Shown: in pieces, positions 2,005 through 62,540 of the stretch
Layout: the number at the start of each line of letters is the position of its first letter
How positions within the stretch are numbered: position 1 is the first letter of the stretch
NCBI GenBank assembly: GCA_004335835.1
Contig: RWJK01001019.1
Location: 22,146 to 86,145, forward strand
DNA from: Scenedesmus sp. ARA3
Taxonomy: Eukaryota > Chlorophyta > Chlorophyceae > Sphaeropleales > Scenedesmaceae
Length of the DNA: 64,000 bases
Direction: 5' to 3'
Made by a program: the position numbers and the translations under genes
Notes under the pieces: model-generated
Databases searched by the model: none
What the model saw: the letters and a program-made list of their open reading frames with translations, nothing else
Told to the model about the DNA's origin: nothing

Positions 2005-4138
2005 AGCTGCGGCTGCTGCCTTGCTGCCGCGTGGTGCGCGGGGTGACTGTGGATTGGAGCGGGCCACCTTGCGGCTTGATTTGCGCAGCGCAGCAATGAT
2101 GTCATCCTGCAGGGGAGTAACAGTGTGAGTAACAAGTGGTGAGGTTGTACTGTGTCCCAACCATCACACCCAGACCTTGAGGCGCACACTCACCCAGGCT
2201 AGCTTGCTGCTGGTGTACAAGGTTGCGCTGCCAGGAGTGCTCAGCGTCTGCTCTGAAGACTTTTGACAGCGCAACTTCACACACCGCCAGCTTGAAGTTC
2301 ACCCAACACAAATAGGGCACCATGACGTTCACACTCACCAGCGGCAATCTGGTGCATCTTCATACATCGCCAGCGTGTACTTCACGATTGTCTTCACACA
2401 CGAGAGCATCACACTCAGCCTGAACTCCACACTCACCCGCACTAAGCTTGAAGTTCACGATCGTCTTCAGACATCAGATCAAATACAGACTGGTGTAACT
2501 TTGCACTCACCCGCGCCAGGTTGCCGCTGGTGACCCACGGCAGCGCATCTTCATACACCGCCAGCTTGAAGTTCACGATGGTTTTCACGCCCCTGCACTT
2601 CACTGCCATGATGTCATGCGCCTTGGCGGCCTGCACCTCGTTGTCAAAGCCACCCAAGTAGACTTGCTTCTTGGCGTCCCAGATGTGGGCCTGCAAGATT
2701 GAGAGAGAAGCAGCAAGGTACACTGATAATAGACTCTGTGGCAAGGCAAGCGTTACTGTGAATATTGATGCTGCCCAGGTACACCTGCTTCTTGGCATCC
2801 CATATATGCGCCTGAAAAGTGACACAAAAGGTTGCAAGGCATCACAAGAGTGAGATCAACGCGGCCTGCGCCTCGCTGTCAAAGCCACCCAGGTACACCT
2901 GCTTCTTTGCATCCCAGATGTGCGCCTGCGGACACAGAAACAAGCAACAACAGGGTGGTGAGTGAGTGTTGACTGTACTGTAGCAAAAGCCTGCACCTCG
3001 TTGTCAAAGCCGCCCAGGTACACCTGCTTCTTTGCATCCCAGATGTGTGCCTGCAAAGTGACACAAAAGGTTGAGAGGGCATCACAAGAGTGGTTTCAAG
3101 GCGGCCTGCACCTCGTTGTCACAGCTGCCCAGGTACACCTGCTTCTCTGCATCCCGGCTGTGAGCCTCCAAGATAGACTCAGCAAGCTTCATTGTTTTCA
3201 CGTTTGTGGCAGGGCAGGTTGACTGTGGCAAGCTTGGCGACTGCAGCAGCTGCCTCCCAAAACAACAGCACAGGCATCAAACAAATGACTGCATTGCCGC
3301 CGCAAGAGTGCAAGCAAGGCAGTGATGGGCTCGGGCGGCATCATGCACAGCGACCATCGCTCACAGCTGATGTTGCAGTATGTTATGTTATCATATGTAA
3401 CGCAATGTAACACGATGTAACACTGCTTGGGCTCACCTCCCAGCGCTTGGTGCGCCTGTGCTGTGTGACGCCCCTGAACCTGCTGCTGTTGCCGATGGGG
3501 CCGCGCCGCGCCCTGGACACTTGCTGCAGGCACGCAAGCAATTCAAGCACATGGAGACGATGCAAGGCGTGTTGTTGGGCATGGCAGCGCGCAGATTGCT
3601 GTAGCAGGAACCTGCACATAATACATGCACTGGGTAGCAAAGACGGCAGCCGATTGAACCGATTAGGCGGCGGCGCGCGCAGCATGTCAAAGCGACATGC
3701 CTGACTGCATGCGCATCACACATGCAAGCCTGGTGTTTGTCTCTTGCGCAAAGCCATTGACAGCAGCCGCAGCGGTACCGCTAGCAGCAAAAGCTCCTGC
3801 TGCGGGCAACACGTGCGCTGCATGCACAACACAAAATGCGACAATCAGGGCAACCCTGCACGACTAACACGTTACTAAAATGCTATGTAACGCTCACCTC
3901 TATGTCAAAGTTGGTCAGTGCCTCCAGGTCGCTGCGCAGGTCGTTCACTTCATGCACCGCCACAGGCCGCGTCATCACTGCAGTCAATGCATCATCAAAG
4001 CTGCTGTAGCGCCGCACCCCTGCTGCTGCTGCTGCTGCTGGGTTGGCTGGAGCGGCGCTGCCGGTAAGGTGGTGAGGGGAAGCAGCAGCAGCAGCAGGGC
4101 GCTGGGGTGCTGCCATTTGCAGGAGGTGCTGCGCAGGG

Positions 4139-4680: not shown

Positions 4681-6724
4681 CTGTTAGCTGCTCCAACACG
4701 CCCGTCAACTGCTGCTGGTGCTAGTTCTGCTTCTGCTATTGTTGCTTTGGGGCAGATGATGATGGCAAGATTCTCAGGAATGTTATGATCCAGCAAGCCC
4801 ACAATCTGCAACAGCAGCACATTCATGTCCAAAAAGCAGTGAGTGATGGGCCTAGCAGGAGCGAAGCATGCACTGAATCGTTTTCAGCCAGCACCCTCAT
4901 CGACAATCTGAATGGTGATGAGTCAAATGCTGCTGCTGGTACAGCTTCGCTGCAAGCACACTGTTTGTTTAGCGTGCCGCACGCAGGGCAGCAGCCGCTG
5001 CTGGTATCTCTGAAGCATTGCAGCAGTGCTTGATCTCAGGATGCTGATGTGAACGACGCAAGGCAGCACAATGCGTGCATGCATGCATCTGGCTGATAAT
5101 TGCTGCTACTGTCTTCCTGGCAGCAGCCAAGCAATGGTGCTTCTGCTGCAGTTCAGCTGGCAGGTGCTCCTGCTGCTTCAGCAGCTTCAGCTGAAGCAGC
5201 ATGCCGCAACGCAGCGCCCGGCAGCAGACGCCACAGGAAGCCATATGTTTTGGCGCGCATGCGGAGCAGCATCGTGTGAAGCCTGTCACACATGGGACGG
5301 CCGTAGCCGGCTCAGCAGCAGCAGACTCACGAGGTAAGTTGCACAACGTTGGCCGGTCCAAGAACGGGGAAACTTGCGGTTGGCAAAGCAGCTGACACAG
5401 CAGCGAAGGGTATCTGCCTTTCACGCCAGTGAGGCGCAGATCGCAGATCTTCTGCCGCTGTGCGATGATTCGAGCGGCTTCAGCCAGCACGATGAGCGGT
5501 TGCGGAAAGACACTGACAAGGATCAATGCGCCCGACAGGGTAGCGGACATTGCCAATGCTGCATAATGAACCTGGTGCAGAAATTTTGGTGATGATTCGC
5601 AGATGCAGGTGGGCGTTGCCGTCGCCGGCAGGTGGCTTGAACGTTGGAAACACCTTGGACAGGCGCGGTTTATGGCCCGACGTTGGAAGGTCCCATCATC
5701 AGTGCTCGGAAGCGTTTTTTGCATATTTAACAGCTGTTATTTCTTTTGGCAAATGAGCTGATCTAAGCGTAGATGAAGCGCAGCTTCGGAGCAGCCACTG
5801 TGACGTGCTCCCTTCCGCCGTGCGGCAAGCACTACTGCCCTTGCCGCTTCGTTTATATCTTTATTGTACTAACATCAGTCATTCTTACGCGCTTGTGTGG
5901 TTTAGGCAGGTCTCCTGCTGCTGGACAGCAGTACAGCCGATCAGTGATGAGGGAACATAGCAGGTGTCACCTGCTCTTCCTTGGTTAGTTCCTGCATGCA
6001 ACGCCCCTTTGTATTTACAAACCATGGCTGAATGGCAAATTCATCTTGATGTGCGCCGAAGCAGTTCAACCAACCTATGAGAACAGTGGCAGCGCTTGCC
6101 ATACAGGGCTGAGCCCTACATGTAGCTAATTAAGATTTCCTTCAGCAACCACCTGGAAAACGGGATTCAAACCCGTCCCAACAAAACCATGCCACTTCTT
6201 CCATCCCCTTCATCAGCTGGCTACCCACAGTGCTGGCCAGGCTAAGAGGGCGTGTGTGCACTGCCTGGTTGCTGCTGTCCAGGCAGCGCGCTGCACGCCC
6301 TGGATGTTGCAGCACAACTGCTGCTGCTGCCGCCTCAAACCTCACAACAAACCAGCTTTTTGCAGCTGATCTTCTGTTGCTACTGTTTAACGATGCTGCA
6401 CAACAGGACGGCCTCACTGCTGCACAACTGGACGGCGTCACTGCGTCAGCCCCAGCTCCTGCATGCACTGCAGCACCTCATTGGCAGACACACCCGGCCA
6501 TCTCATCACAGGTTGCCAGCTGGCAGACTGATCAACAGCAGCGAGCCAAACTAAGATCGGTAGCCACCATTTCAAATGACAAGTTGTGCCATCAACTCAA
6601 TCAATGTGCAGTGCTGAAACTGGCTGCTGCTGTTCAGGCACGATGCACACCCACACTGCTGCTGCTGCTGCTTCACCTGCAATCTCATGCATAAACACAA
6701 ACGGATTATATGAGCTGCACAGCC
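4681..6724. other. Upstream region of the AP2 gene and downstream region of the kinase gene
   Basis: About 2 kb with no gene I can name. It should contain the missing 5' exon(s) and promoter of the AP2 gene. A minus-strand open frame from an ATG at 5724 down to 4969 (251 codons) is the longest candidate; it has a GTGAGT donor near 5330, but I could not join it in phase to the exon at 4680. A TTACA at 6015-6019 (TGTAA on the minus strand) is a possible polyadenylation signal for the kinase gene, about 700 bases after its stop. Confidence 0.4.
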
Positions 6725-6994
6725 TCATTGCGTCAGCCCCAGCTCCTGCATGCGCTGCAACACCTCCTTCGCAGACACACCCGACTTGCGGCTGAACAGC
6801 CGGCTCCACCAGCGCAGCACCTTCTCCCTTAAACCCCGCAGCAGCTTGAAGCGCCGGGGTTTAGCGGTGACATCCAAAACCGCGACCTCCCGCACCTCCA
6901 CAAAACCGCCGCCGGCCTCGTCGTACACGCGGTCACTGCTGGCCACGCGGCGCACTGCACCGTCAGCGCCGGTGACTGCAAGCAGCAGCATGGT

Positions 6995-7053
<59 letters not shown>

Positions 7054-7103
7054 NNNNNNNNNNNNNNNNNNNNNNNNNNNNNNNNNNNNNNNNNNNNNNN
7101 NNN

Positions 7104-7156
<53 letters not shown>

Positions 7157-7235
7157 GCAGCAGCATGGCGGCTGGACAGATCAGGTGCACCTTCCATGAA
7201 CAGGGACACACAATTGAGATGGTCATGGTGAGCAA

Positions 7236-7267
<32 letters not shown>

Positions 7268-7816
7268 GGTGGCAGCAGCAGCAGCCATCCAGCAGCCGCA
7301 CATAGAACAGCACCCACCTGTCTGCAGCAATGTTAGCGGCTGCAGCTTCAAGTCAAGCGTGTCCTCAATCGGCTTGTACAGCTCCATCATGATAATCTGG
7401 AAAACTGTGTCCTGCTACCTACATCAGCCACAATATATCACCCTCTCCCTCCCACCTGTGTCATGGAAGAAGCGCGCCTGCAGCTTCAGGTCCAGCACAT
7501 CCTCGATGTTCTTGTACAGGCACAGCTGCGTTTGCAAGGCCATGCCCAGTCAACTATCATTGTTGAAAGCAGCAAGATCCTCCCCACCTGTTTCCTGAAA
7601 ACACCTGGCCTGCAGCTTGAGGTCTAGTACATCCTCAATGAGCTTGTACAGGCACATCTGCGTTTTGAGAATGTTTCATAACCTTCAAAAGCACCAAAGC
7701 CTCTCCCTCCCACCTGTGTCTTGGAAGAAACGCGCCTGCAGCTTGAGGTCTAGTACGTCCTCGATGAGCTTGTACAGGCCCAGCACGCGCCCCTGGCGGC
7801 TCTTGGGCCAGCCCCT

Positions 7817-7870
<54 letters not shown>

Positions 7871-8487
7871 GCAGCAGCAGCAAGAACATATTAGTGTGTT
7901 TGCCTAGGGTCACAGGCACCACAATGCATAACTGAAACTGCAGAAGCGAGGCAAAGTGTGTGCTGCATACAACAGCAGCACAACGCCGCCACTGGGGTTC
8001 AAACAGCACACCTCTCACCTGCCATCCAGCTGCGTCGCCAGCGACCGCAGCAGCCGCCAGGAATCAGACCTGCCCCGATACTAGACTGCAAAAAACCCTG
8101 TACAAAGCTGCCACTGGGCTTTGAACGGCAGACCTCTCACCTGCCGTCCAGCTGCGTCGCCGACGAGCGCAACAGCCGCCAGGAATCAGACCTGCCTTTG
8201 TAACAGACTGCAAAACACCACCACCATGCTGCCACTGGGCTTCGCACCGTATACCCCTCACCTGCCGTCCAGCCGCGTCGCCAGCAACCGCAGCAGCCGC
8301 CAGGAATTAGATCTGCCCAATTACCAATGCAATGCTGCCACTGCGCTTTGAACCGCAGACTTCTCACCTGCCGTCCAGCCGCGTCGCCAGCGAGCGCAGC
8401 AGCCGCCAGGAATCAGACCTGCCTCTGTACCAGAAGGAGTAAAATGCTTCCAGGGGACCCTTGGCAGGCGGCAGCCGCTGCAGCGCC

Positions 8488-8531
<44 letters not shown>

Positions 8532-9891
8532 GCTGCTGCTGCCGGCTGGGGCGCTGTCTGCCGGGGTGTTCATGTTGGGGGAAGAGAGTTTGAGGTAGCT
8601 GCGTGCCTGGCGCTCGTTGATCTGTGGTCGCAGAGGCATACACATACAACACAGCGCACAGCAGGCACAAACAAGTAAGCCCAAGCAGGTACAGATTGAG
8701 CAATGTATTGCAGTACGGCGATTGCAGCGGGCACAGCAAATGAGAACACGGCAGAAGGAGCAGGGGCGCGGGACTTGACTCACAGCTGCTTTCTGCAGTG
8801 TGTGCTGGCTCAACTGGCCCAGTTGCATCTTGCAACGAGACAATGCCATGTCGGACATGCAACGCAACCCAATGTATACACTTCACCTCACCTTGAAATG
8901 GCCAAAGTCCAGGATCTTGACAGTGAGCAGCCCTTTCGCCAGCGCTGCTGACTCAGCAGACACAAAACACCTTGAGCCAGCTAGACAATATAATTCTACC
9001 CAGCAAATTAAATCAACCATCCAACACACCTTGGAGTGGCCGAAGTCAAGTATCTTGAAGGTTAGCAGTCCCTTGGCCAGTGCTGCTGACTCAGCCCGAC
9101 ACAAACCCTTGAGCCAGCTGGAAAATATATTACAACCCAGAAAGATCAATGTATCAAGCATCCAACACACCTTGGAGTGGCCAAAGTCCAGGATCTTGAA
9201 GCCGAGCAGTCCCTTGGCCAGTGCCGCTGACTCAGCAGACCCAAAACACCTTGAGCCAGGTAGACAATATATTACAACCCAGAAAGATCAATGTATCAAG
9301 CATCCAACACACCTTGGAGTGGCCGAAGTCCAGGATCTTGAAGCTCAGCAGTCCCTTGGCCAGTGCTGCTGACTCAGCAGACACCAAGCCCTGGGCCTGC
9401 CATGACAATACAACCCACAATAGCACACGCAACGTACCTTGGAATGGCCAAAGTCCAGGATCTTGAAGGTCAGCAGCCCCTTAGCCAGTGCTGCTGACTC
9501 AGCAGACACAAAGCCCTGGGCCTGCCAGGTTTCAGCGTCATCCCGCAGTGCTTGCAGAGCCTCTGGGTCAGTGCTGTGCTCCATGATGTTGCTGCATTGC
9601 ACACCGCAGAGGTTCAGTGAACTGGAAGACAACAGTACATTGTAGTGTATGGTATTGTAGCAGCATGCACTGTTTGAGCAAAGGCAAAGCAGTGGAGTCA
9701 GGTGTCATGATCTGCGGCGAACTGCCCTTGTAGGGAGGCTGATGACAACTTGACAGTGTGTGCTATTGTTCTGAAGTTCATACACACGGCTGTGTCAATA
9801 TAAGTGCGCAATGGCCGCCCACCTGATGCGCAGGTCGCCATGCTGGAAGCCAACCAGCGCCTCAGCCTTGTGCAGCGCAGTCAGCACCTGC

Positions 9892-9945
<54 letters not shown>

Positions 9946-11912
9946 ACCTGGTTCAGGAGATATGTCAAAACACACAGCAGCAGCTTACAGCCGCGCCTCT
10001 GCCTTGTGCAGCGCAGTCAGCGCCTGCACGAAAGCAGACACAGCTGCACAACTTCGAATCAACAAGCGGGAGTCCTCCGGAGTGCTACTCCAGAGGGGCA
10101 GGGCATGTGTCTTGCTGGGAGTGCTCCAGGGTAGCTCCAGGGAGTACAAACTGGAGTAAATTAGAACTCTGTTGGCATTATGTCCGATTGAAGGACCCGA
10201 GGATGCACATGCACACACCCCACCTGCTGAAATACCATGGCCCATTGCGGCAATGAAGTCAGCATCTCAGGAGCTGGCATCCTCCTCCAGCCTACTGTCC
10301 AATAGGCCCAACAGCAATCACCTGCACCCAATTGCAACCACCCACCTGCTGCAGACACCGCATACACCGCCTGCCCACCTGCTGCATCATCATCGTGATC
10401 CTTCAGACGCATGTGCAGCCTGCTGAACATTTGTCTGCTGCAGCAAGTGCCTGCCACGCCTGCTGCAGCAACACACAGCAACACACAGCAGCAACAGCAA
10501 CACACAGGGACCCACCCACCCACCTGCTGCCGCATCACGAGGATGAAGTCAACATCCCAGAAGCTGGCATCCTCCCCCAGCCTGCTGTCCGACAGGCCCA
10601 CTAGCAACCTGCTGCACCCACCACCCCATCCTTTACGACACACCCCTCACCCCTTGCTGCAGCAACTGCCACCTGCCTACCTGCTGCAGCATCATTACGA
10701 TAAAATCCACATCGCAGAAGCTGGCATCCTTTCAAGCCTGCTGTCTTGCCGTTGATGCCCTCAAGCACTGTACCACACCCGGGGCAGCACCCTACTAGAA
10801 CCCCCGCCAACCATCTGCTGCAGCATCATAAGATTGAGGTCAAATTGGTAGGCAAACTTCCCCCTCCCCACAGCCACACAGATACAGCCACAATACACCG
10901 CGTTTGCTTACCTGCTGCAGCATCATCACGATGAAGTCCACATCGCGAAAGCTCGCATCCTTCTCCAGCCTGCTGTCCTGTCTACTCAACCTGCTGCATG
11001 AACCACCCCACCTGGTGCAGCTGCTTAACCCCTCCACCCTTTCCCGCCAGCTGCGTGCCTGCAACATGGTGAGGATACGTCCATGCACATAAAGCGCGAC
11101 CCACCTGCTGCAGCATCATGACGATGAAGTCAACATCACAGAAGCTGGCATCCTTCTCAAGCCTGCTGTCCGACAGGCCCACCAGCAACCTTCTGCGCCT
11201 GCACCCACCACCCCATCCTTCACGACACACAAACCCCTCACCCCTTGTTGCAGCAACTGCCACCCGCCTACCTGCTGCAGCATCATCAGGATGAAGTCCA
11301 CATCACAGAAGCTGGCATCCTTTTCAAGCCTGCTGTCGAGGCTCTTGGCGTTGATGCCTTCCAGCACGCAACACCACCCGCAGCAGCACCCTAACCAAAC
11401 CCCCGCCAACCACCTGCTGCAGCATCATTAGATTGAGGTCAAAGTGGTGAGCGAACTTTCCTCTTCTTGCCACAGCAACACAGATACAGCCACAATGCAC
11501 CTACCCACCCACCTGCTGTAGCATCATCAGGATGACGTCAACATCACAGAAGCTGGCATCCTTTCAAAGCCTGCTGTCCAGGCTCTTGCCGTTGATGCCC
11601 TCAAGCACCCAAAACCACCCGGGGCAGCACCCTACGAAAAACCCCGCCAACCTACCTGCTGCAGCATCATTAGATTGAGGTCAAGTTGGTAAGCAAACTT
11701 TCCTCTTCTTGCCACAGATACAGCCACAATGCACCCACCCACCCACCTGCTGGAGCATCATCATGATAAAATCCACATCACAGAAGCTGGCATCCTTTTC
11801 CAGCCTGCTGTCCAGGCTCTTGCCGTTGATGCCCTCAAGCACAGTGCCCCTGAACACCAGCTGGCCTTTCTTGTCTTCAGACACCACGGCAGGGCCTGCA
11901 TGCAGCCATTGC

Positions 11913-11943
<31 letters not shown>

Positions 11944-13735: not shown

Positions 13736-13739
13736 ACAT

Positions 13740-16124: not shown

Positions 16125-16163
<39 letters not shown>

Positions 16164-16269: not shown

Positions 16270-16301
<32 letters not shown>

Positions 16302-42947: not shown

Positions 42948-42979
<32 letters not shown>

Positions 42980-46012: not shown

Positions 46013-46057
<45 letters not shown>

Positions 46058-49686: not shown

Positions 49687-49717
<31 letters not shown>

Positions 49718-51499
49718 TGCTGTCACCGCTGCAGACTGCTTGCTTCTTGCCGGCAACTGCATTGTAGAAGAGGCTGTGCTCACTGGCCAGCCCACACTGA
49801 CAACCCGCTGACCTGCTGCTGCTGCTGCTGTCGCCGCTGCAGATTGCCTGCTGCTCGCCGGCAATTGCATTGTGGAAGAGGCTGTGCTCACTGGCGAGTC
49901 AACCCCCCAATGGAAGCTGGCTGTTGGGGGCGGCGGCGTGTCACCGAACGAGCACCTGCACATCAAATCGCACAGGCAGCATGTGCTGTTTGGCGGGACA
50001 AAGGTGCTGCAGCATACCGGAGATAAGGCAGGGCGCATTCGCACGCCAGACGGCGGCTGCCTTGCTGTTGTGCTGCGGACAGGTGCGGGACAGAGACACG
50101 GATGCTGCTGTGCACACAGCTGTGTTGTGTGACTCGGCGCGTAGCTGTGTGTGGAGAATTTACAGCATGTTTGTGGTGCATCCAGCTGGTTGTTGAGGCT
50201 GTTTTGTTCACAGAAGTGTACTGACGGCCTCTGTTGTGCTGTGTTGTTTGCACACGCTTGATCCTCTGGCGATGTGTGGGGTATGCATTGTGCGAATTCC
50301 GGCCGATGATGCTTGCTGAACTAGATAGTAGATTTGTAGCGGGGCAACCTGCGATGATCCTAAACCCATTTGGGGAAGCCCTGAGGCCCGCTGGATGCCC
50401 CCTGCTCTATTTGCAGCCGCAGGGCGCTGTGTTTTGAAGGCAGTGTGTCTCTGGTGTTCAATGGTGTTTCATGGTGCATGTGGTCAGTGAGAGTTCTTCA
50501 TGGTGTGCTGTTCCTCTGTTCTGCATTGTGCCAGCTACCCGAACTAAGTGAATGTCAAGCAGAGTTTGACCGTGCACCTGCATAGGGCGCACCACATCAG
50601 TGACCGCAGTGCCTGCTGTTGCTGTTGCTGCTGCTGCTGCCGCTGCCCCCTCACAAAGTACTGCTGCAGGCTTTGAGACCAGCCAGGGGCAGCTGATGCG
50701 CACCATCCTGTACAGCACGGAGCGCGTGACCGCCAACAGCTGGGAGACGGGGCTCTTTATCTGCTTCCTGCTGGTGTTCGCAGTGTCTGCGGCTTACTAT
50801 GTGCTGAAGCATGGCCTGGCGGTGAGTCCTTAGCTGTTTATGGTGCGAGATCTTCATTTGTGAGCCCTCAGCTGCGACATCTTAGCTGTTTCTGGTGCCA
50901 TTGTAGAGCTGGATCTGGTGTGGTGTTCCTGTGGTGTACTTGTGGAGCCGGTTGCACTGGCACCACCAGTACACCACAGGCACACCACACCAGAGGTGTG
51001 TTTGATCGTCTGCCTGCTGGTGGTTGCGGTGTCTGCAGCTTACTACGTGCTCAAGCATGGCTGGCGGTGAGTCCCTAGCTGTTTATGGTGTGAGGCCTTA
51101 ACTGTGAGCCCTGAGCTGCGACATCTTAGCTGTTTCTAGTGCTCTTGTAGAGCTGGATCTGGTGGGGTGTCCCTGTGGTGTGCTCGTGGTACCTGTTGCA
51201 GCTGGCACCACAAGTACACCACAGGCGCACCCCACCAGAGGTGTGTTTGATTGTCTGCCTGCTGGTGTTGGCGGTGTCTGTGGCTTTCTACATGTTTCAA
51301 CACGGCGTGGTGGTGAGGCGGTCTGCTTGTGTACATCTCTTTGGTGCTGTTTTTGGCTTGTTCGATGTGGCGTGGTGTCTGCAGTTGGGTGTTTTGTGGG
51401 ACGTATCCAATATGGTGTGTTTGTCATCGTCTGTGGAAATGTGGGGCCTGTGGGTCACCGCCAACAACTCAGCTTCAGTTGCTGCAACGCAAACTTTAT

Positions 51500-51535
<36 letters not shown>

Positions 51536-54450
51536 AGGACCCCAGCCGTGACCGCTTCAAGCTCATCCTGAACTGCGTCATGATCGTGACCAGCGTCATC
51601 CCGCCAGGTGCGCAACACACCCCAGCGCTGCTGCAACAGCAGGCGCGCTCTGAGCATGAGCAGAGCTGCAGTCGATGCCAGCCTGGTGGCTTCTTGCTGA
51701 TTTTGCCGTTAACGGGAAGTTCAAATCATGTGTGTTACTTTCCACATGCAGAGCTGCCCATGGAGCTGACCATTGCTGTCAACGCCAGCCTGGTGGCGCT
51801 GGCCAGCAAGGCCATCTTCTGCACGGAGCCCTTCCGCATACCCTTCGCGGGCAAGGTGCGTATGAACTGCTGCTTAAGATTCTGTCTAACAGTACAGCTT
51901 CAATTGGACTTTTGGGGGCGCTTGTGCAGCGCAGTGGCAGCGTAGTGGTGTGAGCAAGGTCATCTTCTGCACGGAGCCCTTCTGCATACCCTTGGCGGGC
52001 AAGGTGTGGCCGTTGTGTATGAGTTGAGATCTCACCATCAGCACTTCTCTTTCGTTTCACACTGATGTTATGTGAGTGGCATGTGAAGGATGCTGTGCCT
52101 GTGTCATCTTCTTGCTCAGCTGCTTTCATGCTGCCCTGTTATCGGCTTTGCTGTAGTGTAGGTGGAGGTGTGCTGCTTTGACAAGACAGGCACACTCACA
52201 ACAGACCACCTGCTGCTGGAGGGGCTAGCAGGGCTGCCCGGCAAGTGAGTGTTACGTAACATGTCATAACACGTCGTCATACGCTACAGTTGGTTAATTG
52301 CAGTCCCAACAGCACATCAGGTCGAGGTCGATAGGAAAGGCATAGTGTTGCATAACAATGCTTCGCCATTTGCCTTTGCAGCACTGCTCTCTGCCTGCTC
52401 TGGCAAATTGCAATTGCAATAGCTGCCGCAGTGCGTCTTGCAAACCTGGCACCTGGCAGTGTGCTTGCTGCCATGGCACACGCCTACTCCGCTTCTTTTA
52501 AGCATGCGTGCATGTGCGCTGTCCTGCAGGCCGCCGCGCGAGCTGGTGAGCGAGCCGGCGCAGATGCCTGCTGCTGCCGGCGAGGTGCTGGCTGCTTGCC
52601 AGAGCCTGGTGCTCATCGACGGCGAGGTCATTGGGGACCCTCTTGAGAAGGCCGCACTGCAGGTAAGGCACAGCAGAAAACAAGTTTGGCACTTGTTGCA
52701 TGTTTGGGAGTATGTGTGTAGGTGTTGGCTGGCTGCCAGAGCTTGGTGCTTATTGACGGGGAGGTCATTGGGAACCCTCTTGAGAAGGCGGCTCTGCAGG
52801 TGAGGCAAATGCCGCTGCAGACCTTTGCAAAGGCGCTTTCAGCTGCTCAGCACTGCTGCCGCTACAGGCCTCCTGCTCGAGCTACAGCAGCAGCAGTGCG
52901 CTGTCACAATATATCCGTGCTAGCCACTCTTTTTTAGCTCCCACTGGTTTGCACCCCTTGCCCTGTTGCTGCCCTTCAGGCGTCCCGCTGGAGCTACAGC
53001 AGCGACGTGGCGCTGTCACACGACAAGAAGACGCGCGCGACCGTGGTGCAGCGCTACCACTTCAGCAGCGGGCTGCGCCGGATGGCTGCCACAGTGCTGC
53101 TGGAGGAGGAGGATGCTCCACAGCCTGTGCCTGTTGCGCTGATGAAGGGGGCGCCTGAAGTGGTGCGGCAGTTCCTGAAGCAGGTGCGGCCTGTTTGTAA
53201 CCTGCTGTGCAGCACAGTGATAGAAGCAGAGACGGAGGCGGATACTGGGCATTGCATGGTATGGTGTGTTTGACAGCAGGGTCTTTCATCCGGGCCCATC
53301 CCAGTCGTAGTGGGGGCGCTGGGTTCCAAACCCTGCCACAGCAGCTGCTGCTTGCACCTGTTGATGCCGTCTGGCTGTACTGCTTGGCCAGACGGCTGCG
53401 TGTGAGCCGCGACATACATCTGCATGCATAGCTTACCCTTACCTTCTGGCCTCAGACCATGCGCTCATCATGTCGTGACCGCAAGGGGTCAGCTGGTGGC
53501 AGGACTGACGTGACATTACCGTAAGTGTATAGCATAGCCACACCCACAGCACGCCTTGTGCGCACCTGTCCACTCAAATTTGTCCTGCAGGTGCCCTCAG
53601 ACTACAATGCCATCTACAAACACTTCGCTGCACAGGGCTTGTTCACACTCACATGCCATACCGAATCAGCATGCATTCGGCCCGCCTGCCGGCTCTACTC
53701 CACTGTTAATCCCGATCCCTGCAGGTGCCATCAGACTATGACGCCACATACAAGCACTTTGCTGCTCAGGGTGCGCGCGTGATCGCGCTGGCCAGGCGGC
53801 GGCTGCCAACTGACCTGGACGGGCCTGAGCTGCGCAACCTGGAGCGAGATGCGGTCGAGCGGGACATGGAGTTTACAGGGTTCGCCATTTTCCAGGTGAG
53901 AACTTCACATTTGGAAGTTGTATATGTTGACTGACTTTAGTGTCAGGGCGTTGCAGCGACTGTCAATCGACTTGGACGGGCCATAGCTGCGGAACATGGA
54001 GCGGGAGGCGGTGGAGCGGGACGAGTTCACTGGGTTTGCCATCTTCCAAGTGAAAACTTCACACTGAGCATGATCTGTTTTTCTGGGTGCTCCTGGGTGC
54101 TCTTGAAATAAGATGCGACACGGGCGCAAGAAGCGTTGGAGCCTGTAGTTGCGGTGCTGGCATCAATCAGACACATGCTGTTCATGATCAGCAGCATGTC
54201 TTGACCACTTGCTGCTGCTGCTGCTGCTGCAGTGTCCCCTGAAGGAGGAGTCTGAGCCTGCACTGGCTGAGCTGGCATCAGCCAGCCACATGCTGGTCAT
54301 GATCGCCGGCGATGCGCCTCCTGATCTCACTTCTGCTGCTGCTGCTGCTGCAGTGTCCCCTGAAGGAGGAGTCTGAGCCTGCACTGGCTGAGCTGGCATC
54401 AGCCAGCCACATGCTGGTCATGATCACCGGTGATGCGCCTCCTGATCTCA

Positions 54451-54490
<40 letters not shown>

Positions 54491-57198
54491 AGTGTCCCCT
54501 GAAGGAGGAGTCGGAGCCTGCACTCGCTGAGCTGGCATCAGCCAGCCACATGCTGGTCATGATCACGGGTGAAGCACCTCCTAACCTCACTTCTGCTGCT
54601 GCTGCTGCTGCTGCAGTGTCCTCTGAAGGAAGAGTCAGAGCCTGCACTGGCTGAGCTGGCATCAGCCAGTCACATGCTGGTCATGATCACCGGCGATGCG
54701 CCGCTGACGGCAGTGCATGCAGCCAGCCAAGTGCACATCGTCACGCGGCCAGTGCTGGTCATGCAGCACAAGTGAGTGTTGGGTTTTATTGTTTGCAGCA
54801 AGCAAGGTAGTGTTGTCTTTTGATATTGTGCAGCACCAGTGAGGTGCCATTGTAAACGAGCATGGAGCCAGCCAGTTGCACAATGTGACACGGCCAGTGC
54901 TGGTCATGCAGCCCAAGTGCGTGTTTGGCTACGACAAGGCGGGTGGCAACTTGTGCTCCTGTTGCTGCTGCTGGTGCCTGCTGTTGGTCAACCAGTTTTC
55001 AATTATGACAAAACCAAGCCCTTGTGCACTTGTGTGACACTTGCTGCAGGCTTGAAGCTGTGGGTGATGGCCCGGGCGCCTACCACACCCCGGGTTCAGC
55101 AGATGCTGATGCCGAGTTCGAGTGGGCCATTCATAACAGAGTTCTGGCGAAACCAAAACCTTGTGCACTTGTGTGACACTTGCTGCAGGCTTGAAGCTGT
55201 TGTTGATGGCCCAGGCGCCTACCACACCCCGGGATCCGCAGAGACTGATGCGGACTGTCATGATCAGCATCACAAATGTCTGGCCAAACCCTTATTACGT
55301 GTACATTCCGTCACCTTTCTCACTGCAGGCTGGAAGCTGTGGGTGACGGCCCAGGCGCCTACCACACCCCAGGTTCTGCAGAAGCTGATGCCGAGTTTGA
55401 GTGGGTGTCCCCGGATGAGTCGTCGCGCATCCCCTTCAGCAGAAGCTGGGAGGAGCTGCTGCTGCTGGCTGGCGAGTACGACCTGTGCCTGACAGGTGCG
55501 GCGGGAAAGGGGCACACCGCGCGCAGCGCAGCTGAAGGGCGCTGAGCTTATTTAATGTGGGTCACTTGCGCTGGCAAGCGCTGCAACACACTGCGCAGCG
55601 CTCGGGCCTGACAGCATGCTGCTTTGGGCGTGGTGGCTGTGCTCATGTCCAGCGTAAGACCTGCCACCCGCTCACGATGTGCATACTGCATTACCACAGG
55701 CAACTATGTTGATCCATTTTGTCATGATTATGCTGCTGCTTTGCTGCAGGTGCCGCGCTGGCGCACGCTGAGGGCTGCGGGCTGGGCCGCAGGGTCATCC
55801 CGCTGGTGCATGGTGCCTAACATTAACCACAACATATCATTTATCTGGGTTGTGCTCGTATGTTATGTCTGCTGCGCAGGCGACGCGCTGGCGCACGTTG
55901 AGGGCTGCGGGCTGGGCCGCAGGGTCATCCCGCTGGTGCAGGTCTTTGCACGCGTGAGCCCTGAGCAGAAGGAGCTGGTGCTGCAGGTGCGTGTGGAACG
56001 TGATGCTGCTGCCTTGGGTTGAGTGCTGATGTGGCTTGAGACTTCATAGAGAGCAGAAGGAAAAGCTGGGTGCTGCAGGTACGTGCGTATGTGTGAGTGT
56101 GTGTGGCTCTCACCTTTTCTGTGTCGCAGTGTGCTTTGCTGCAGTGTGTTGCTGGTGCACCAGGTTTGGGAGCTCCGGTTGTTGCGACTGTGGGGTCTTA
56201 ACAATAGGAGCAGGTGCTTGCAGAAAAACACGCGTGTGTATAGGACGGCTGCGTGTTTGGGACGCTGGCGTGGCTTTGCCCCCAGCTGCTGCGGCTGACG
56301 CACAATGCTTGCCGCAGCAGCTCACAATTCACACTTTGTTGTCTGCTGCTGCTGCTGCTGTGCCTGCAGACGCTGCGTGCTGGCGGCTGGGTGACGCTGA
56401 TGGTTGGTGACGGCACCAACGATGTGGGAGGGCTCAAGGCTGCACATGTTGGCGTGGCGCTGCTGGCACCCAGTGCTCTGGCTGAGCTCAAGGTGCGAAT
56501 GGTTGGCAATGCTCAAGTGTACTTCGGGTTGTCCGGTTTGCCGTTTGCCGACTTGTGTGATGTTGGGTGTCGGTACTCAGTAGTTCACATCAACTATGCA
56601 AATGGTGTTATTCTCTATGTCGTGTTCATTGAGAGAAGCCAATTCTTCAGAAATGCTCAAGCTGCCCCGTGTGCTTACTGCCCTGTGCCTGCTGGTGCTG
56701 CTGCTGCCCTGCCTGCTTACGCCATTGCAGAAGAAGTCGAAGGAGAGGGGAGAGAAGAAGAGCAGGAGCTCAAAAGCAATAGCAGCAGGCGGCAGCGCAA
56801 ACAGCAGCCAGCAGCAGCAGCAGGGTGCAGTGGTGCCCGCCGGAGATCGAGCAGCAGCAGCAAAGGCAGGGCGCACCTCACCAGCTCCAAACGCTGGTGC
56901 GGTTGTCGCCGCTGGAAGTGCTGCTGCAGGTACAACAGGCGGCGAGCAGGCCAAGGGCAAAAAGAAGGGTGAGTGACCACTGCGCATGGCATGTGATTGC
57001 CTGCAGCTGCTGGCTGCTGCCCCACTTGTCGGCAACTCCAGCAACTCACGAGCAGAGGAAACCTCTGGCAGTGCCGCTGCTGGGGCAGCGATTGCAGGCC
57101 TGCTCCTAGCAGCTGCCTTTGTGGCGTCAAGCCGGGCGAGGCTCTACTGCAGCCATACCCATTGGCCTATGCCCAGCACTTGCACTCTCGTAAAATCT

Positions 57199-57253
<55 letters not shown>

Positions 57254-57335
57254 AGGCGAGAAGCTCAAGCCGGGCGAGGCGCTGCTGCAGCAATCCCTCT
57301 GGCCTAAGCCCAGCAGTTACACTCTCATCAAATCT

Positions 57336-57391
<56 letters not shown>

Positions 57392-60300
57392 ATTTCCAAC
57401 AGGCGAGAAGCTGAAGCCTGGTGAGGCGCTGCTGGAGCAGTACCGGGCCGCTGGCAAGCCCGTGCCGCCCTCGCTGGAGCGCATGGCGGCAATGCTGGAC
57501 AAGATGGAGGAGGACAGCGCGGCAGCACAGGTGTGGCTGTCTTACAATATGCTTCGCAGTTTAGTTGTTGCCTTATTATGCGGCTATATTGGATTAAAAC
57601 AGCGCGTCTGCCCCTTTGCCGTGTTCGGATTGGGTGGCTGTGTATGTGCGTGGAGGCCATGCTGGACAAGATGGAGGAGGACAGCGCGGCAGCACAGGTG
57701 GGCACAACATTGTGTTTTTGTTGGTGTGAGTGTCTGTGTCTGCAGACTGAGCCCCTGCGGTACCTATCTGCTGTTTGTTTTGCAGGATGCCCACATGGCC
57801 CCCCTGGCAACCCATCGCTGTTGCAGCAGTTTTGCTGAACCTGTTGTGCTGAACCTTTTCCTATGGTGCTACATTTGTTTTCTGCAGGACGCGCCCATGG
57901 TCAAGCCTGGCGATGCAAGCATGGCCTCCCCATTCACCGCAAAGGCCTCCAGTGTAGCGCCAGTGACAGACATCCTCAAGCAGGGCTGCTGCACGCTGAA
58001 CCCCCCTGTGGTGTGTGTTTCTGCTGTTTTGCAGGATGGCTACACGGTTGAAGCTCCGGCAACATATCTCTGCTGCAATGGGTTTGTTGGCCCTACTGAA
58101 CCTCTTCCTGTGGTGTCATCTTTGTTGTGTGCAGGATGTGCCTATGGTCAAGCCTGGTGACGCCTCCATGGCCTCCCCATTCACCGCAAAGGCATCCAGC
58201 GTCGCGCCTGTCACAGACATCCTCAAGCAAGGCCGCTGCACGCTGGTGACCACAGTGCAGATGTTCAAGATCCTGGGTCTGCTGTGCCTGAGCACAGCCT
58301 ACGCGCTGAGCGTGATGTACCTGCAGGGAGTCAAGCTCAGCGATGCTCAGGTGCGGGGACTTGTGTTTTGTCAGAGGTGAAGTAAACTTTTACATATTGT
58401 CTACGACAGACTCCGTTTGGAACTGTCCATGTTGAGAAAGGTCTTGCAGCCTGTTGTGGTAAGGGCCGAGATCCTGGGAGGATAGTGTGATAGGATTTGA
58501 AGCCAAGCACAGGCCTGCCAGGCATGCCATTTTGCACATCAGAAAGTACAGGCCAAGGCTGACAAAGAGCTTTGGCAGATGCAGCAAGCTGCCCCCTGAC
58601 ATGCTGCCGTGGACATACTTCAATGGTGAGTGCACCTTATGGGGACCCATAATGTGTGCTCGCCTTTGAAATATGTCCATGACAGGATGTCGGCGTCAGC
58701 TTGCGGCCTTTGCCAAAGCCACCTCGCTGCACTGGCAGCCAGGTTGCCTGCTGGCCATGCTGCAGGGTGTGCAGCATGCATGTGGCTTGCGCTGTGCTGC
58801 TGTTATACTTGAGTAGGCCACGCTGTATGATGTGCTGGCTGCCGGTAATCCACGGGTGGTGACTGCCGGCTTGTGTGTGTTGTGTTTCTGGTTGTGAGAA
58901 TGTGTTCTGCCTGCTGTTGCTGCAGGCCACGCTATCTGGCGTGCTGACTGCCGGCATGTTCTAGTTTATCAGCAACGCCAAGCCGCTGACATTGCTGCAT
59001 TTCTGCATTCAACGCCAGTGCCACCTACTGTGGGTATTGGAGTTGAATGCGGAACTCCAGCAATGACTCTATTTTGTCTGATACATGCAGGCTGTGCTGC
59101 ACTTCCGCATGCTGATACGCAGCAACATAATATGAAAGCAACTGTAACAACTGTTTGCTATGTTGTGGTATTATCTACTTTGTCTGTTGATTCTGTAAAA
59201 CAAGCGTAATTTCTGCTGTGGCGCAGGCCACGCTGTCTAGCGGGCCGTCTGCTGACATGTTCTACTTTATCAGCAACCCCCTCCGATGTTGCTTGCCGTA
59301 CCTAGTTTTTTGACAGCTGGTTACCGTTGCCTGAACGCTGCAGGCCACGCTGCCTGGCGTGCTCACTGCTGGCACAATCTGGCGCTGACTGCATATTCTG
59401 GTGTGCTAAATGCTGACACATTTTGCTATGCTGACTGACGGCATGGCCTGGTGTTTCGTCCAATTGCTGCAGGCACAATCTGGCGCTGACGGCATATTCT
59501 GGTGTGCTAAATGCTGACACATTTTGCTATGCTGACTGACGGCATGGCCTGGTGTTTCGTCCAATTGCTGCAGGCCACGCTGTCTGGCGTGCTGACTGCC
59601 GGCATGTTCTACTTCATCAGCAACGCCAAGCCGCTGCCGCAGCTGAGCTTGCTACAGCAAGTCTGTTGAACCCATACTCAACACTATCGCGTCCTGACTT
59701 TTCCATTTGCAACGATGCAGGCTACACTGCTCTCTGGCATGTTAAACGGCGGCATCCAAATGTTGAAGCAACTGTGACTTGGTGTACTCTGTCTGGTAGA
59801 TGTAAGCCATGCATCCTGACAATCCTGAAACATGTATTTCTGCTGTGGTGCAGGCCACGCTGTCTGGCGTGCTGACTGCGGGCATGTTCTACTTTCTCAG
59901 CAACGCCAAGCCGCTGTCATTGCTGAAGTCCCGCATTCATGTTCATCGCCTGGCTGACTGCGCTACATTCACAAATGTGTACTTTCTGCTGGCATGCAGG
60001 CCACGCTGTCTGGCGTGCTGACTGCCGGCATGTTCTACTTCATCAGCAAACCCTTCCACTGTTGCTTGCCATGTTCAGCTTCCTTGACTGCCGACTGCCT
60101 CTGTTTGCTTGCTGTAGGCCACACTGTCTGGCGTACTGACCGCGGGCATGTTCTACTTCCTCTACTGTTGTTAGCCATGTTTGACCTCTTCGACTGCTGG
60201 TTGCCGTTGCCTAAACGCTGCAGGCCACGCTGTCTGGCGTGCTGACTGCGGGCATGTTCTACTTCATCAGCAATGCCAAGCCGCTGCCGCAGCTGAGCCC

Positions 60301-62540
60301 CGTGCGGCCCCACCCCTCCATCTTCTGCGCCTACTTCTTCACAAGCCTGCTGGGCCAGTTTGCGGTGCAGCTGGGCTTCCTGGTGTTCATGTACAGGTGC
60401 TCGAGTGCGCATATTGCATCTCTGAAATACACTGCTTCGAGGATGGTGTAGCAGGCAGCTGCAAGGGGTAGGGAGGTTGCTGGGCCAGTTTGCGGTGCGG
60501 CTGGGCTTCCTGGTTTCGGGTACAGTTCATGTACAGGTGAGGGCGTGTGTGCATGCTGTATCTAAGAATAAGATTGCTGCCTGCATATGGGCCGGTGGCT
60601 GTAAGGAGTGGGGCGGTTTGCTGTGCAGGCGGGCTTCCTGGTGTTTAGGTGAGGGCGCGCGCACGCACGCTGAATTCGGATGGAAGGTTCTTTTGTGATA
60701 ATTTTTTTCATGGCAGGCGGCTGTCAGGGTGGGCCAGTTTCCGTTGCAGCTGGGCTTCCTGGTGTGCATGTACAGGTGAGGGATTGTGTGCATGTTGGGG
60801 GCGAATGTATTGCATCAAGGGTATTGTGGCCGGCAATTGTGAGGAGTGCAATTTGCTGATTTGTGCTTGTCCGCTGCTGCTTCACCCTTGCAGGATGGCG
60901 CTGGCAGTGATGCCAACTGAGCAGCAGCACACGACACCGGGTCTGACTTTGCGCCAAACCCAGTCAACACCATGCCCTGTGCTGAGCATACCTCTCACTG
61001 AACTGTACCTGTCCGCTGCTGCTTTACCCTTGCAGGATGACCCTGGCAGTGATGCCAGCCGAGCAGCAGCAAGACGCCGAGTCTGACTTTGCGCCAAACC
61101 TGGCCAACACCATGCCCTATGCTGAGCATGCCTATTGCTGAATCGTACTTGTCCACTGCTGCTGCAACCTTGCAGGATGGCGCTGGCAGTGATGCCAGCC
61201 GAGCAGCAGCAGGACACCAAGTCTGATTTTGCGCCCAACCTGGTCAACAGCATGCCTGCCCTGAGCGTGTGCCATCTGCTGATTTGCTCCCGTCCAACGC
61301 TGCTTCACCCTTGCAGGATGGCGCTGGCAGTGATGCCTGCTGAGGAGAAGCAGGACACAGAGTCTGACTTTGCGCCAAACCTGGTCAACAGCATGCCTGC
61401 CCTGAACATGCATATTGCTGAACCGCACTTGTCCAACGCTGCTTCACGCTTGCAGAATGGCGCTGGCAGTGATGCCTGCGGAGGAGAAGCAGGACACCGA
61501 GTCCGACTTTGCGCCCAACCTGGTCAACAGCATGCCTGTGCTGAGCGTGTGCCATCTGCTGATTTGTACCCGTCCAACGCTGCTTCACCCTTGCAGGATG
61601 GCGCTGGCAGTGATGCCAACTGAGCAGCAGCACACGACACCGGGTCTGACTTTTGCGCCAAACCCAGTCAACACCACCCAGTCATGCCCTGTGCTGAGCA
61701 TACCTCTCACTGAGCTGTACTTGTCCACTGTTGCTTTCACCTTGCAGGATGGCGCTGGCAGTGATGCCTGCGGAAGAGAAGCAGGACACAGAGTCCGACT
61801 TTGCGCCAAACCTGGTCAACAGCATCTGCTACCTGGTCCAGCAGATCGTGCAGCTGACCACGTTTGCGGTCAACTATGTGGGGCACCCCTTCAACACAAG
61901 TTTGACCCAGAATGCGGGCATGATCAAGAGCCTGCGCTACAGTGGCTGCTTCCTGGCCCTGCTGGTCAGCCAGTCAGTCATGCCTCTGAACGAGAGGTGA
62001 GTGTCTGCACAAAAATGTTGTACTTATCACCAGTGAAGGTGCAACAGCCATTCCTGGTGCCTTGTTGACAAAGAGATTGCCTTTTGCTTGTGAGCGGCCG
62101 AGCACAGCGCGTGGCAATGAAGCATGAAGCACACCACATGTCTACTTGCTGTTTTGCATGCAGTGAATATTGCTGCAAAAGAAACGACATGGGACGCAGC
62201 ACGCCACTTGCTTGGTGCTGCCCATGCTCGCCATGCACTCTGAGCATAAAAACTTACTAATGCCCGCTGCTGCGCCGTCTCCTGCCTCACTCTCCCGCCT
62301 TTTTGTGTGGACCTTTTGTCATCTTCCCCCTGCAGCTTCGGCCTGGTGGCTATACCGCTTGAGATGCGGCTCTACCTGATAGCAGGCTCGCTGGCTGTGA
62401 TCGCCTTCAGCCTGTTCTGGGAGCACAGCCTGCGGCGACTGTTCCCTGCAGCCACACCCCCCAGCAAGGGCTACATGGTGCACAGCAGGCAGCTGGCGCA
62501 GCTGCAGGCGCAGCGCTCGAGAGCACGCAAGGACGAGTGA
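44950..62540 (+). CDS. P5A-type ATPase (Spf1/ATP13A1/PDR2 family)
   Basis: ER P-type ATPase; characterised P5A pumps remove mis-inserted transmembrane helices. Twenty-five exons join in phase to 1,300 aa: 44950-45125, 45308-45509, 46060-46119, 46496-46702, 47660-47763, 48296-48437, 49396-49489, 49843-50082, 50670-50821, 51538-51607, 51752-51855, 52162-52244, 52530-52662, 52980-53183, 53725-53895, 54617-54771, 55329-55495, 55880-55986, 56370-56492, 56731-56968, 57403-57530, 58135-58350, 60224-60396, 61748-61996 and 62336-62540. Signatures: [20 protein letters not shown]; actuator TGES (345-348); VIPPELPMEL in the ion-site helix, diagnostic for P5A; phosphorylated Asp524 in [15 protein letters not shown] (645-649); GDGTND (870-875); then C-terminal membrane helices. 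A K/E/S/Q/A-rich insert of about 80 residues follows the P domain. Somewhat longer than plant homologues. The gene is echo-rich: most introns carry copies of exon edges. Confidence 0.96.
46310..46390 (+). repeat. Acceptor-side echo of P5A exon 46496-46702
   Basis: One copy of the beginning [13 protein letters not shown] with its acceptor context, upstream of the intact exon. Confidence 0.85.
46770..47090 (+). repeat. Donor-side echoes of P5A exon 46496-46702
   Basis: At least two copies of the exon end ([13 protein letters not shown]) near 46776-46830 and 47020-47085, downstream of the intact exon. The second is strongly decayed. Confidence 0.75.
47230..47514 (+). repeat. Acceptor-side echoes of P5A exon 47660-47763
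   Basis: Three copies of CAG plus [20 protein letters not shown] separated by CTG runs, cut by the following gap. They lie upstream of the intact exon. The number of copies in the gap is unknown. Confidence 0.88.
47515..47655. other. Assembly gap (141 N) inside an echo array
   Basis: The gap breaks off inside one copy of the PFSELLKEQ repeat and resumes at the acceptor of the intact exon, so the assembler evidently failed on near-identical tandem units. Confidence 0.98.
48575..48895 (+). repeat. Donor-side echoes of P5A exon 48296-48437
   Basis: Copies near 48590-48660, 48728-48750 (partial) and 48808-48885 repeat [20 protein letters not shown] with the GAG|GTGCG donor, downstream of the intact exon. 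Confidence 0.87.
49130..49350 (+). repeat. Two acceptor-side echoes of P5A exon 49396-49489
   Basis: Two nearly identical units of about 127 bases start with CTGCAG and [14 protein letters not shown], then shared spacer. They lie upstream of the intact exon. Confidence 0.9.
49640..49842 (+). repeat. Acceptor-side echoes of the P5A TGES exon
   Basis: Two copies upstream of exon 49843-50082 repeat [17 protein letters not shown]. In the better copy (about 49733-49800) the actuator motif has become TGQP, and a stop follows, so it cannot replace the real exon. Confidence 0.85.
50845..51320 (+). repeat. Donor-side echoes of P5A exon 50670-50821
   Basis: Two copies of the transmembrane exon end ([21 protein letters not shown]) near 51000-51070 and 51240-51315, with a repeated spacer of about 180 bases containing 'caccagtacacc', downstream of the intact exon. 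Confidence 0.85.
51950..52010 (+). repeat. Donor-side echo of P5A exon 51752-51855
   Basis: A copy of [16 protein letters not shown] with its donor, downstream of the intact exon. Confidence 0.85.
52720..52910 (+). repeat. Donor echo of exon 52530-52662 and acceptor echo of exon 52980-53183
   Basis: About 52722-52803 copies [20 protein letters not shown] with donor. About 52865-52905 copies the ASRWSYSS beginning of the next exon. One intron thus holds both kinds, each on its expected side. Confidence 0.85.
53585..53640 (+). repeat. Acceptor-side echo of P5A exon 53725-53895
   Basis: A copy of CTGCAG plus [16 protein letters not shown], upstream of the intact exon. Confidence 0.88.
53940..54060 (+). 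repeat. Donor-side echo of P5A exon 53725-53895
   Basis: A copy of the exon end (DLDGP...[17 protein letters not shown]) with donor, downstream; this exon is echoed on both sides. Confidence 0.85.
54225..54600 (+). repeat. Three acceptor-side echoes of P5A exon 54617-54771
   Basis: Three units of about 120-140 bases, each a CTG run, CAG acceptor and [20 protein letters not shown] onwards to MITGDAP, upstream of the intact exon. Copy-to-copy identity is high and the CTG run length varies. Confidence 0.92.
54830..54925 (+). repeat. Donor-side echo of P5A exon 54617-54771
   Basis: A decayed copy of [18 protein letters not shown] sequence downstream of the intact exon. Confidence 0.75.
55040..55265 (+). 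repeat. Two acceptor-side echoes of P5A exon 55329-55495
   Basis: Copies near 55048-55125 and 55188-55258 repeat GCAG plus [20 protein letters not shown], upstream of the intact exon. Confidence 0.88.
55740..55820 (+). repeat. Acceptor-side echo of P5A exon 55880-55986
   Basis: One copy of [18 protein letters not shown] with CTGCAG acceptor, upstream of the intact exon. Confidence 0.85.
57120..57295 (+). repeat. Two acceptor-side echoes of P5A exon 57403-57530
   Basis: Copies near 57126-57155 and 57254-57292 repeat [10 protein letters not shown], each followed by spacer and a long CTG run. The intact exon is last. Confidence 0.87.
57645..58080 (+). repeat. Donor echo of exon 57403-57530 and acceptor echoes of exon 58135-58350
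   Basis: About 57650-57705 copies the [14 protein letters not shown] end with donor. Then three or four copies of the [18 protein letters not shown] beginning occur; the one at about 57888-58000 extends over 110 bases of exon sequence. Confidence 0.87.
58815..60215 (+). repeat. Nine or so acceptor-side echoes of P5A exon 60224-60396
   Basis: Copies of CAG plus [20 protein letters not shown] start near 58817, 58925, 59228, 59342, 59572, 59720, 59853, 60000 and 60117, all upstream of the intact exon. Spacing is irregular (about 105-300 bases). The exon heads resemble each other more than the spacers do. One copy has an in-frame TAG. Confidence 0.9.
60475..60785 (+). repeat. Donor-side echoes of P5A exon 60224-60396
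   Basis: Three or four copies of [16 protein letters not shown] and the GTG donor, progressively decayed, downstream of the intact exon. Confidence 0.85.
60880..61735 (+). repeat. Six acceptor-side echoes of P5A exon 61748-61996
   Basis: Units start near 60893, 61034, 61175, 61316, 61457 and 61597, a regular period of 140-141 bases. Each contains a pyrimidine tract, [26 protein letters not shown] and NLVNS-like sequence. The first and sixth share the same frame-shifting variant and the same spacer. Confidence 0.93.

Follow-up and report, generated by a model that had tools for sequence, protein, structure and literature searches.

The introns of the five genes modelled in this stretch of 64,000 nucleotides (the window) carry many diverged copies of the edges of their adjoining exons, arranged in tandem and with a nearly constant polarity. 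The best explanation, which we consider likely, is that local tandem duplications recurrently cross exon edges and that the truncated copies decay and lengthen the introns. The copies, their positions and polarity, their recurrence elsewhere in the genome, their pattern of decay and a large length difference between two paralogues were all observed directly.

The window is part of contig C716 of a draft assembly of 87.3 Mb, composed of 1,567 contigs with N gaps. Judging by protein identity, it probably derives from Tetradesmus obliquus or a very near relative. Five genes with 61 introns were modelled by placing homologous proteins with a purpose-written spliced protein-to-DNA aligner: an ATP13A1-type cation-transporting ATPase, a C2-domain (MCTP-like) protein, a kinase-like gene, a CobW gene and a kinesin, whose boundaries are the least secure, as its homologue is a more remote one. 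The ATPase gene (44950..62537, + strand, 25 exons and 24 introns), which we take to be of the P5A type, was modelled by spliced alignment of P0001, P0002 and P0003. Its modelled coding sequence comprises 1,281 residues without a stop and shows 9 residue differences and one 14-residue gap relative to the public T. obliquus protein P0001; P0001 and P0002 are concordant at nearly all exon boundaries, with P0003 deviating at exons 1, 2, 19, 20, 22, 23 and 25. Among the genes on the - strand, there are the C2-domain gene (34555..43971, 14 exons modelled from P0121 and P0122, both ends incomplete, with a 99% match to P0122), the kinase-like gene (6728..14039, 10 exons, from P0123) and the CobW gene (14437..17578, 5 exons, from P0128). 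CTG/CAG triplet runs are very numerous in the window (for example at 4139-4185, 57200-57391 and 46014-46057), some of them directly preceding an acceptor AG, as in the array of ATPase exon 16. There are N runs at 7054-7103 (50 bases) and at 47515-47655 (141 bases), the latter within an array whose copy number is consequently uncertain.

Of the 59 introns that are 60 nt or longer, 35 have a repeat family touching the edge of an adjoining exon, 1 has a solely intronic family and 23 have no family. By gene, arrays of this kind occupy 15/24 such introns in the ATPase, 8/13 in the C2-domain gene, 7/9 in the kinase-like gene, 2/4 in CobW and 3/9 in the kinesin; the earlier note on this DNA, which had claimed arrays in most introns of every gene, was thus right about the arrays in these five genes and overstated the case for every gene. 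Array spans, including copies and spacers, cover 19,340 of the 30,907 intron nucleotides of the five genes (63%), and the median intron length is 592.5 nt with arrays versus 243 nt without them, both of which support the claim that introns grow from duplications. Also supported is the claim that local tandem duplications of about 100-180 bp cross exon edges in the five genes. The spacing between copies is 102-183 nt in 36 of the 41 array families.

Junction-crossing copies, defined by at least 12 nt on each side of a splice junction, were found upstream of 23 of the 61 acceptors (exon-start or acceptor-type copies) and downstream of 19 of the 61 donors (exon-end or donor-type copies). When the adjoining introns were searched with exon ends of up to 400 nt, 109 of the 110 matches were on the same strand, and 105 of these 109 cross the edge or reach within 5 nt of it, indicating that fragments of exon interiors are not scattered through the introns. 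The copies are thus direct and lie beside their source, and arrays were also detected by TRF. In contiguous cases, the exon part and the intron part add up to a unit close to the spacing (161/152, 132/126 and 269/249 nt for ATPase exons 4, 8 and 22), and in the 20 examples inspected the spacers between copies often had no recognisable homology. An introner-like test of the ATPase region (19.9 kb), in which 39 of 247 candidates were scored, gave as its main dispersed match 62967-63371, which lies outside the gene, and within the gene gave short matches, mostly at CTG runs, the longest being 189 bp at 74%. The element at 62967-63371, just 3' of the ATPase gene, is a dispersed repeat with copies up to 99% identical on many contigs, and our impression is of a reading frame similar to the tail end of a retroelement protein. 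In ATPase intron 8, 91 bp (50298-50388) match contig C935 at 89%.

In the ATPase gene (+ strand), six AG-bearing decoys of the start of exon 24 (61748-61996) form an acceptor-type array with a period of about 141 (60846..61825). Exon 23 (60224-60396) has acceptor-type copies of its start in a 1,873-nt intron (58917..60286) and donor-type copies of its end (60346..60797). Acceptor-type arrays are also present at exon 16 (54617-54771), with three decoys of its start (54139..54702), and at exon 7 (49396-49489), where the outermost decoy of the array (49130..49444) has only 14 nt of intron in common. The end of exon 9 (50670-50821) is copied in a donor-type array (50756..51317); inside it, in the segment 50914-51239, stretches of about 80 bp match each other in inverted orientation at 83-86%, and this imperfect palindrome might fold into a hairpin. 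A decoy of the end of exon 21 (57656..57697) corresponds to the 14 extra residues of P0001, which are absent from the transcript-derived P0002.

In the C2-domain gene (- strand), there is a donor-type decoy of the end of exon 13 (35473-35775) at 35211..35301, with 91 nt at 96.7% at a distance of 260, in which homology runs about 2-6 nt into the intron and then stops, and an acceptor-type array of the start of exon 12 (36169-36373) at 36274..36857. Part of a decoy copied from the end of exon 9 (38238..38261) encodes the extra HLMYLNH of P0121, absent from P0122. The end of the last modelled exon is crossed by a 221-nt direct repeat (80%, about 34270-34730), which was excluded from the counts and may be a further donor-type echo, the gene probably continuing. 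Weak internal repeats lie inside coding exons of this gene (41865-42263, 62%) and of the kinesin (23983-24474, 58%).

The kinase-like gene (- strand) contains mostly donor-type arrays, including six junction-crossing decoys of the end of exon 5 (11747-11895; array 10253..11848), four of exon 7 (9438-9591; 8889..9527), three of exon 8 (8368-8621; 7980..8434) and three of exon 4 (12664-12787; 12287..12742). In the kinesin (+ strand), exon 4 (20425-20616) is flanked by an acceptor-type array upstream and a donor-type array downstream (19950..21003), and four decoys of the start of exon 10 (23129-23331) form an acceptor-type array (22643..23182). CobW (- strand) has a donor-type array at the end of exon 2 (about 16627-17034) and one acceptor-type copy of exon 4.

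With respect to polarity, exon-start copies upstream and exon-end copies downstream of the intact exon were predicted, and 78 of the 79 junction-crossing copies in the adjoining introns of the five genes are on the predicted side (37 acceptor-type and 41 donor-type). The single wrong-side match in an adjoining intron, at exon 9 of the kinase-like gene, is 65% identical over 94 nt and lies 396 nt downstream. All wrong-side matches within genes amount to 6 acceptor-type and 1 donor-type, six of them at 64-68% and one at 76% over 50 nt, and the six besides that of exon 9 fall in the same exon, in the territory of another exon or in other introns. As raw counts, the same junction search returned 87 same-strand matches outside the gene concerned and 75 opposite-strand matches anywhere in the 64 kb.

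The same polarity was found in a blind test beyond the window, for which a Pfam search of the genome was used to locate chaperonin (PF00118) and SNF2 helicase (PF00176) exons, with the 30 best loci taken per family. Twelve of the 60 loci were dropped (11 with matches outside 60-420 nt and one locus that was too short), and the remaining 48, on 23 contigs, were analysed. A same-strand copy outside the match was present at 26 of them. Exon-start copies were upstream in 34 cases and downstream in 2, the latter being 61-62% identical, and exon-end copies on the same strand were downstream in 19 cases and upstream in none, with 2 upstream copies on the opposite strand; in these counts exon edges are approximated by the ends of Pfam matches, some of which contain a stop, and neighbouring loci overlap, so that copies may be counted twice (for example at L058 and L067). 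The other matches comprised 7 of the whole match, 2 interior and 3 within the match. The predicted polarity is thus kept by nearly all same-strand copies (78/79 in adjoining introns and 53/55 at the other loci).

This polarity is a matter of tandem geometry and of the definition of the intact exon. Duplication of a unit that spans an exon start gives a downstream copy that runs on into the exon and leaves a truncated copy upstream of it, and the reverse applies at the end of an exon. A simulation placed 844 tandem duplications at random in 23 introns free of arrays, with the observed unit lengths and with decay parameters of our own choice, and all 360 copies detected in it obeyed the polarity. 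The one-sidedness thus supports an origin by tandem duplication and is silent on selection, and polarity was rejected as evidence of selection, given that the simulated copies obey it without any. The proposal that only events leaving an intact exon survive is for the same reason not supported by polarity. Because polarity follows from geometry, equal numbers of acceptor-type copies upstream and downstream, which the earlier note had named as contrary to its reading, are impossible for tandem copies. One-sidedness is simple geometry, and the copy number is the striking part.

Beyond geometry, there is an excess of arrays at exon edges, touched by 40 of the 41 families versus 359 of 530 (68%) expected in the simulation (binomial, 2e-6; per-intron Poisson version, 0.003), although 40/41 flatters the excess, since overlapping families were merged and intronic events inside arrays are thereby hidden. 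The 7,705 nt of putative intergenic DNA contained no array, and the sole direct repeat in them was a weak one of 95 nt at 66%, with its copies separated by 527 nt. Furthermore, where a junction has a single decoy of at least 75% identity to its exon (22 cases), the homology breaks off no more than 16 nt from the splice site in 12, and the blocks of many copies stop 3-12 nt beyond the junction. In the simulation, the share stopping within 16 nt was 5-14% with equal decay, 27-36% when intron-derived sequence decayed twofold faster and 62% when it decayed fourfold faster, and the excess of single changes measured on the intron side of decoys was about 1.7-fold. On our numbers, plain decay is insufficient to account for where the homology blocks end, but the margin is modest and the cases are few; a faster decay of intron-derived sequence explains part of the exon-edge excess.

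These observations bear on the alternative that copying is targeted to exon edges by machinery directed there, for example by breaks at R-loop, nucleosome or GC boundaries, in which case copied blocks would stop at the splice signal and duplications lying wholly within introns or intergenic DNA would be rare. The concentration of families at exon edges, the array-free intergenic DNA, the abrupt block ends and the higher GC content of exons (0.632 versus 0.553 in introns) are all in line with such targeting, as is the echo of a stop-codon edge described below; nevertheless, the rather steady spacing of the copies speaks against it, the exon part and the spacer are negatively correlated in length (rho -0.60, p 0.04, 12 cases), as for an ordinary tandem unit that has lost its intron part, and the fourfold extra decay reproduces the block ends, so that we regard targeting as unlikely. 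For blocks without intron homology, duplication between haplotypes, with copies deriving from a diverged allele, was also considered. A bolder proposal, also a doubtful one, is that short tandem duplications start in the exons themselves, for instance by breakage at exon or R-loop edges; introns would then extend outward from exon edges by a genome-wide mutational process, and decoy splice sites would be seeded at roughly every second exon.

In the kinase-like gene, the end of the last exon is copied in the 3' flank (6426..6498, - strand, 86% over 73 nt), and this copy includes 58 coding nucleotides and 15 nt with the stop codon, an edge that has no splice site. A splice-specific mechanism is thus not needed, and this copy agrees better with an effect exerted by exons or by constraint on coding sequence. 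For the proposal that introns grow from the splice junctions themselves, this means that the splice junction as such is not required. Splice-specific copying was tried as the main explanation and demoted to a rival, because this edge is echoed and because strong extra decay reproduces the block ends.

The copies diverge from the intact exons in a way that is mostly that of non-coding sequence. In their exon parts, copies share 58-98% identity with the exon, and in 109 copies compared with the intact exon there are 520 synonymous and 652 nonsynonymous differences, with an opportunity-corrected ratio of 0.40, to be set beside the ratio of about 0.5 that we ourselves expect for a neutral copy and a constrained exon, and with the rows of the 109-copy table not being independent, since copies within one array are related. 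The same copies contain 18 stops and 129 indels, of which 115 are frameshifting. Most of them look like non-coding, dead sequence, and frame and coding constraint, as expected of alternative exons, are not kept overall, although a high-identity subset does look constrained. In copies with at least 85% exon identity the nonsynonymous/synonymous ratio is 0.26-0.30, and some high-identity decoys have synonymous changes only (3:0, 3:0 and 4:0), whereas others have the opposite pattern (0:7 and 0:4). Single changes are distributed over all three codon positions in decoys (43, 41 and 56), and those in the true exon are mainly at the third (4, 1 and 14). Once non-homologous flanks are trimmed away, the decoys have a lower rate of singletons on their exon side (113/1942) than on their intron side (86/891), and an excess at third positions emerges in them (48/544 versus 34/688 and 31/707), which is not predicted for a purely dead copy.

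The third-position excess and the synonymous-only decoys would be expected if the copies were functional, either as alternative or poison exons or as selected decoy splice sites under purifying selection. The AG or GT is kept in 72 of 78 decoys, a set preselected to cross the junction, and decoy pieces occur in two public proteins, which would also be in agreement with a function; yet the frameshifting indels and the stops, the absence of the decoy exon from the transcript-derived homologue P0002 and the decoys with the reverse pattern make it very improbable. A coding function was rejected for most decoys on account of the 115 of 129 frameshifting indels and the 18 stops, the synonymous-only subset of high identity being an exception.

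Identity between decoy and exon is 87% in the exon half and 72% in the intron half. This step at the junction was considered as a sign of selection on the decoys, and it is weakened as such because a constrained exon alone halves the divergence on the exon side. The exon half is also less diverged than the intron half when decoys are compared with each other, in 17 of 18 families, part of the step being due to non-homologous flank. It could be supposed that the copies have their exon part renewed by the intact exon through gene conversion, which would leave only exon-bounded blocks similar. The decoy-decoy comparison agrees with such conversion, and so do contiguous cases with a far better exon half (0.92/0.67 at exon 11 of the C2-domain gene and 0.83/0.71 at exon 22 of the ATPase) and a mosaic copy in the ATPase exon 24 array, in which, by eye, the intron half is that of one decoy and the exon half that of another, suggesting that copies exchange sequence. 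In other contiguous single-copy cases, however, the two halves are about equally diverged (0.83/0.76, 0.84/0.90 and 0.79/0.79), and conversion among copies should preserve intronic arrays too, of which just one was found; we consider this explanation improbable.

Turnover of an array can be followed in one case. Positions 1-5737 of the window have a diverged copy, either a paralogue or a second haplotype, on the short contig C887 (4711-11433; L009 and L010), with long blocks at 83-89% identity and others lower. The intron before one exon measures 47 nt in the window versus about 855 nt in C887, where it contains four exon-start copies, and two of these have bases in common with the window's exon that are not present in the C887 exon. 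The C887 array would most simply have grown after the split of the two loci, loss from the window being the alternative. The exon parts of the C887 array are 92-94% alike, and its spacers, judged by eye, are far more diverged. The C887 copy of the first 5.7 kb is useful as an outgroup for array growth.

The decoy pieces in P0001 and P0121 imply that the copies exist in other T. obliquus records. These pieces may be mispredictions, the annotation having been misled, unless decoys are sometimes spliced in. An artefact of assembly or prediction might be suspected given the draft state of the assembly, with its numerous contigs and N gaps, but it is extremely improbable, as the copies are not identical to the exon, decoy pieces recur in proteins whose annotation stems from other T. 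obliquus records, and the models from P0001 and P0002 agree at nearly all boundaries.

To return to recurrent tandem duplication across exon edges, the preferred explanation can be set out as follows; in it, we infer the duplication step, the unequal exchange and what causes the excess at exon edges. Short local tandem duplications, with a unit mostly of 100-180 bp, would continually arise in the genome. A duplication that crosses an exon edge would be tolerated, because a working splice site is retained by the copy that is continuous with the remainder of the exon, and a truncated copy would be left in the intron on the crossed side, which would generate the entire polarity. Together with their AG or GT, such truncated copies would then decay mostly as non-coding DNA and the constrained true exon would change little; owing to this constraint, the exon half of an array should be recognisable longer than the intron half. 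Arrays could grow further by duplication or by unequal exchange among copies, and the net outcome would be a lengthening of introns from exon edges. The excess at exon edges might come from a faster erosion of non-coding arrays, from duplication initiated by exons, or from both.

The origin of intron sequence is usually lost, and here 63% of the intron DNA of the five genes lies within array spans, with 40 of 41 families at exon edges. Mean intron length is 462 bp in T. obliquus versus 230-302 bp in the other four algae of a published table (PMC5966456), and the accessible part of that paper gives no explanation for the long T. obliquus introns. If general, the duplications described here would be a direct cause. 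The arrays are also a large natural experiment on splice-site choice, in which true sites compete with nearby copies of themselves, and the decoy pieces in two public T. obliquus proteins (P0001 and P0121) are a practical warning for gene prediction.

A model of intron gain by tandem genomic duplication is reportedly due to Rogers in 1989 and to Gao and Lynch in 2009. The short-tandem-duplication mutational process of human and mouse cells resembles the one proposed here in that it makes short tandem duplications. Genome-wide arrays of exon edges were not found described in the titles and abstract openings of the literature matches listed, a coverage outside which most subscription journals lie. 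The earlier note knew of no named system for them, which stands for the arrays as such and not for a single event, since one boundary-crossing duplication has already been reported in potato (PMC4974935, abstract). In the accessible parts of the papers on the AGGT model (PMC3443670, PMC2891723), the tandem duplication of exonic segments with a proto-splice site is a mechanism of intron gain. The likeness to our arrays is that tandem duplication inside genes is a source of intron sequence; in the AGGT model the unit is exonic and a new intron is formed, whereas in the alga the unit spans a splice junction, or a coding end, that already exists. Closer is the potato RdRp gene, in which a single tandem duplication across an intron-exon boundary gave a new intron (PMC4974935): there too, the duplicated segment extends from an intron into the following exon, and on our reading of the abstract the upstream copy has a truncated exon piece. 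The potato case is one event in one gene, with intron gain, a cryptic donor and an added exon piece, while in the alga there are arrays of at least two copies in 35 of the 59 modelled introns, which would lengthen the introns and leave the number of exons unchanged.
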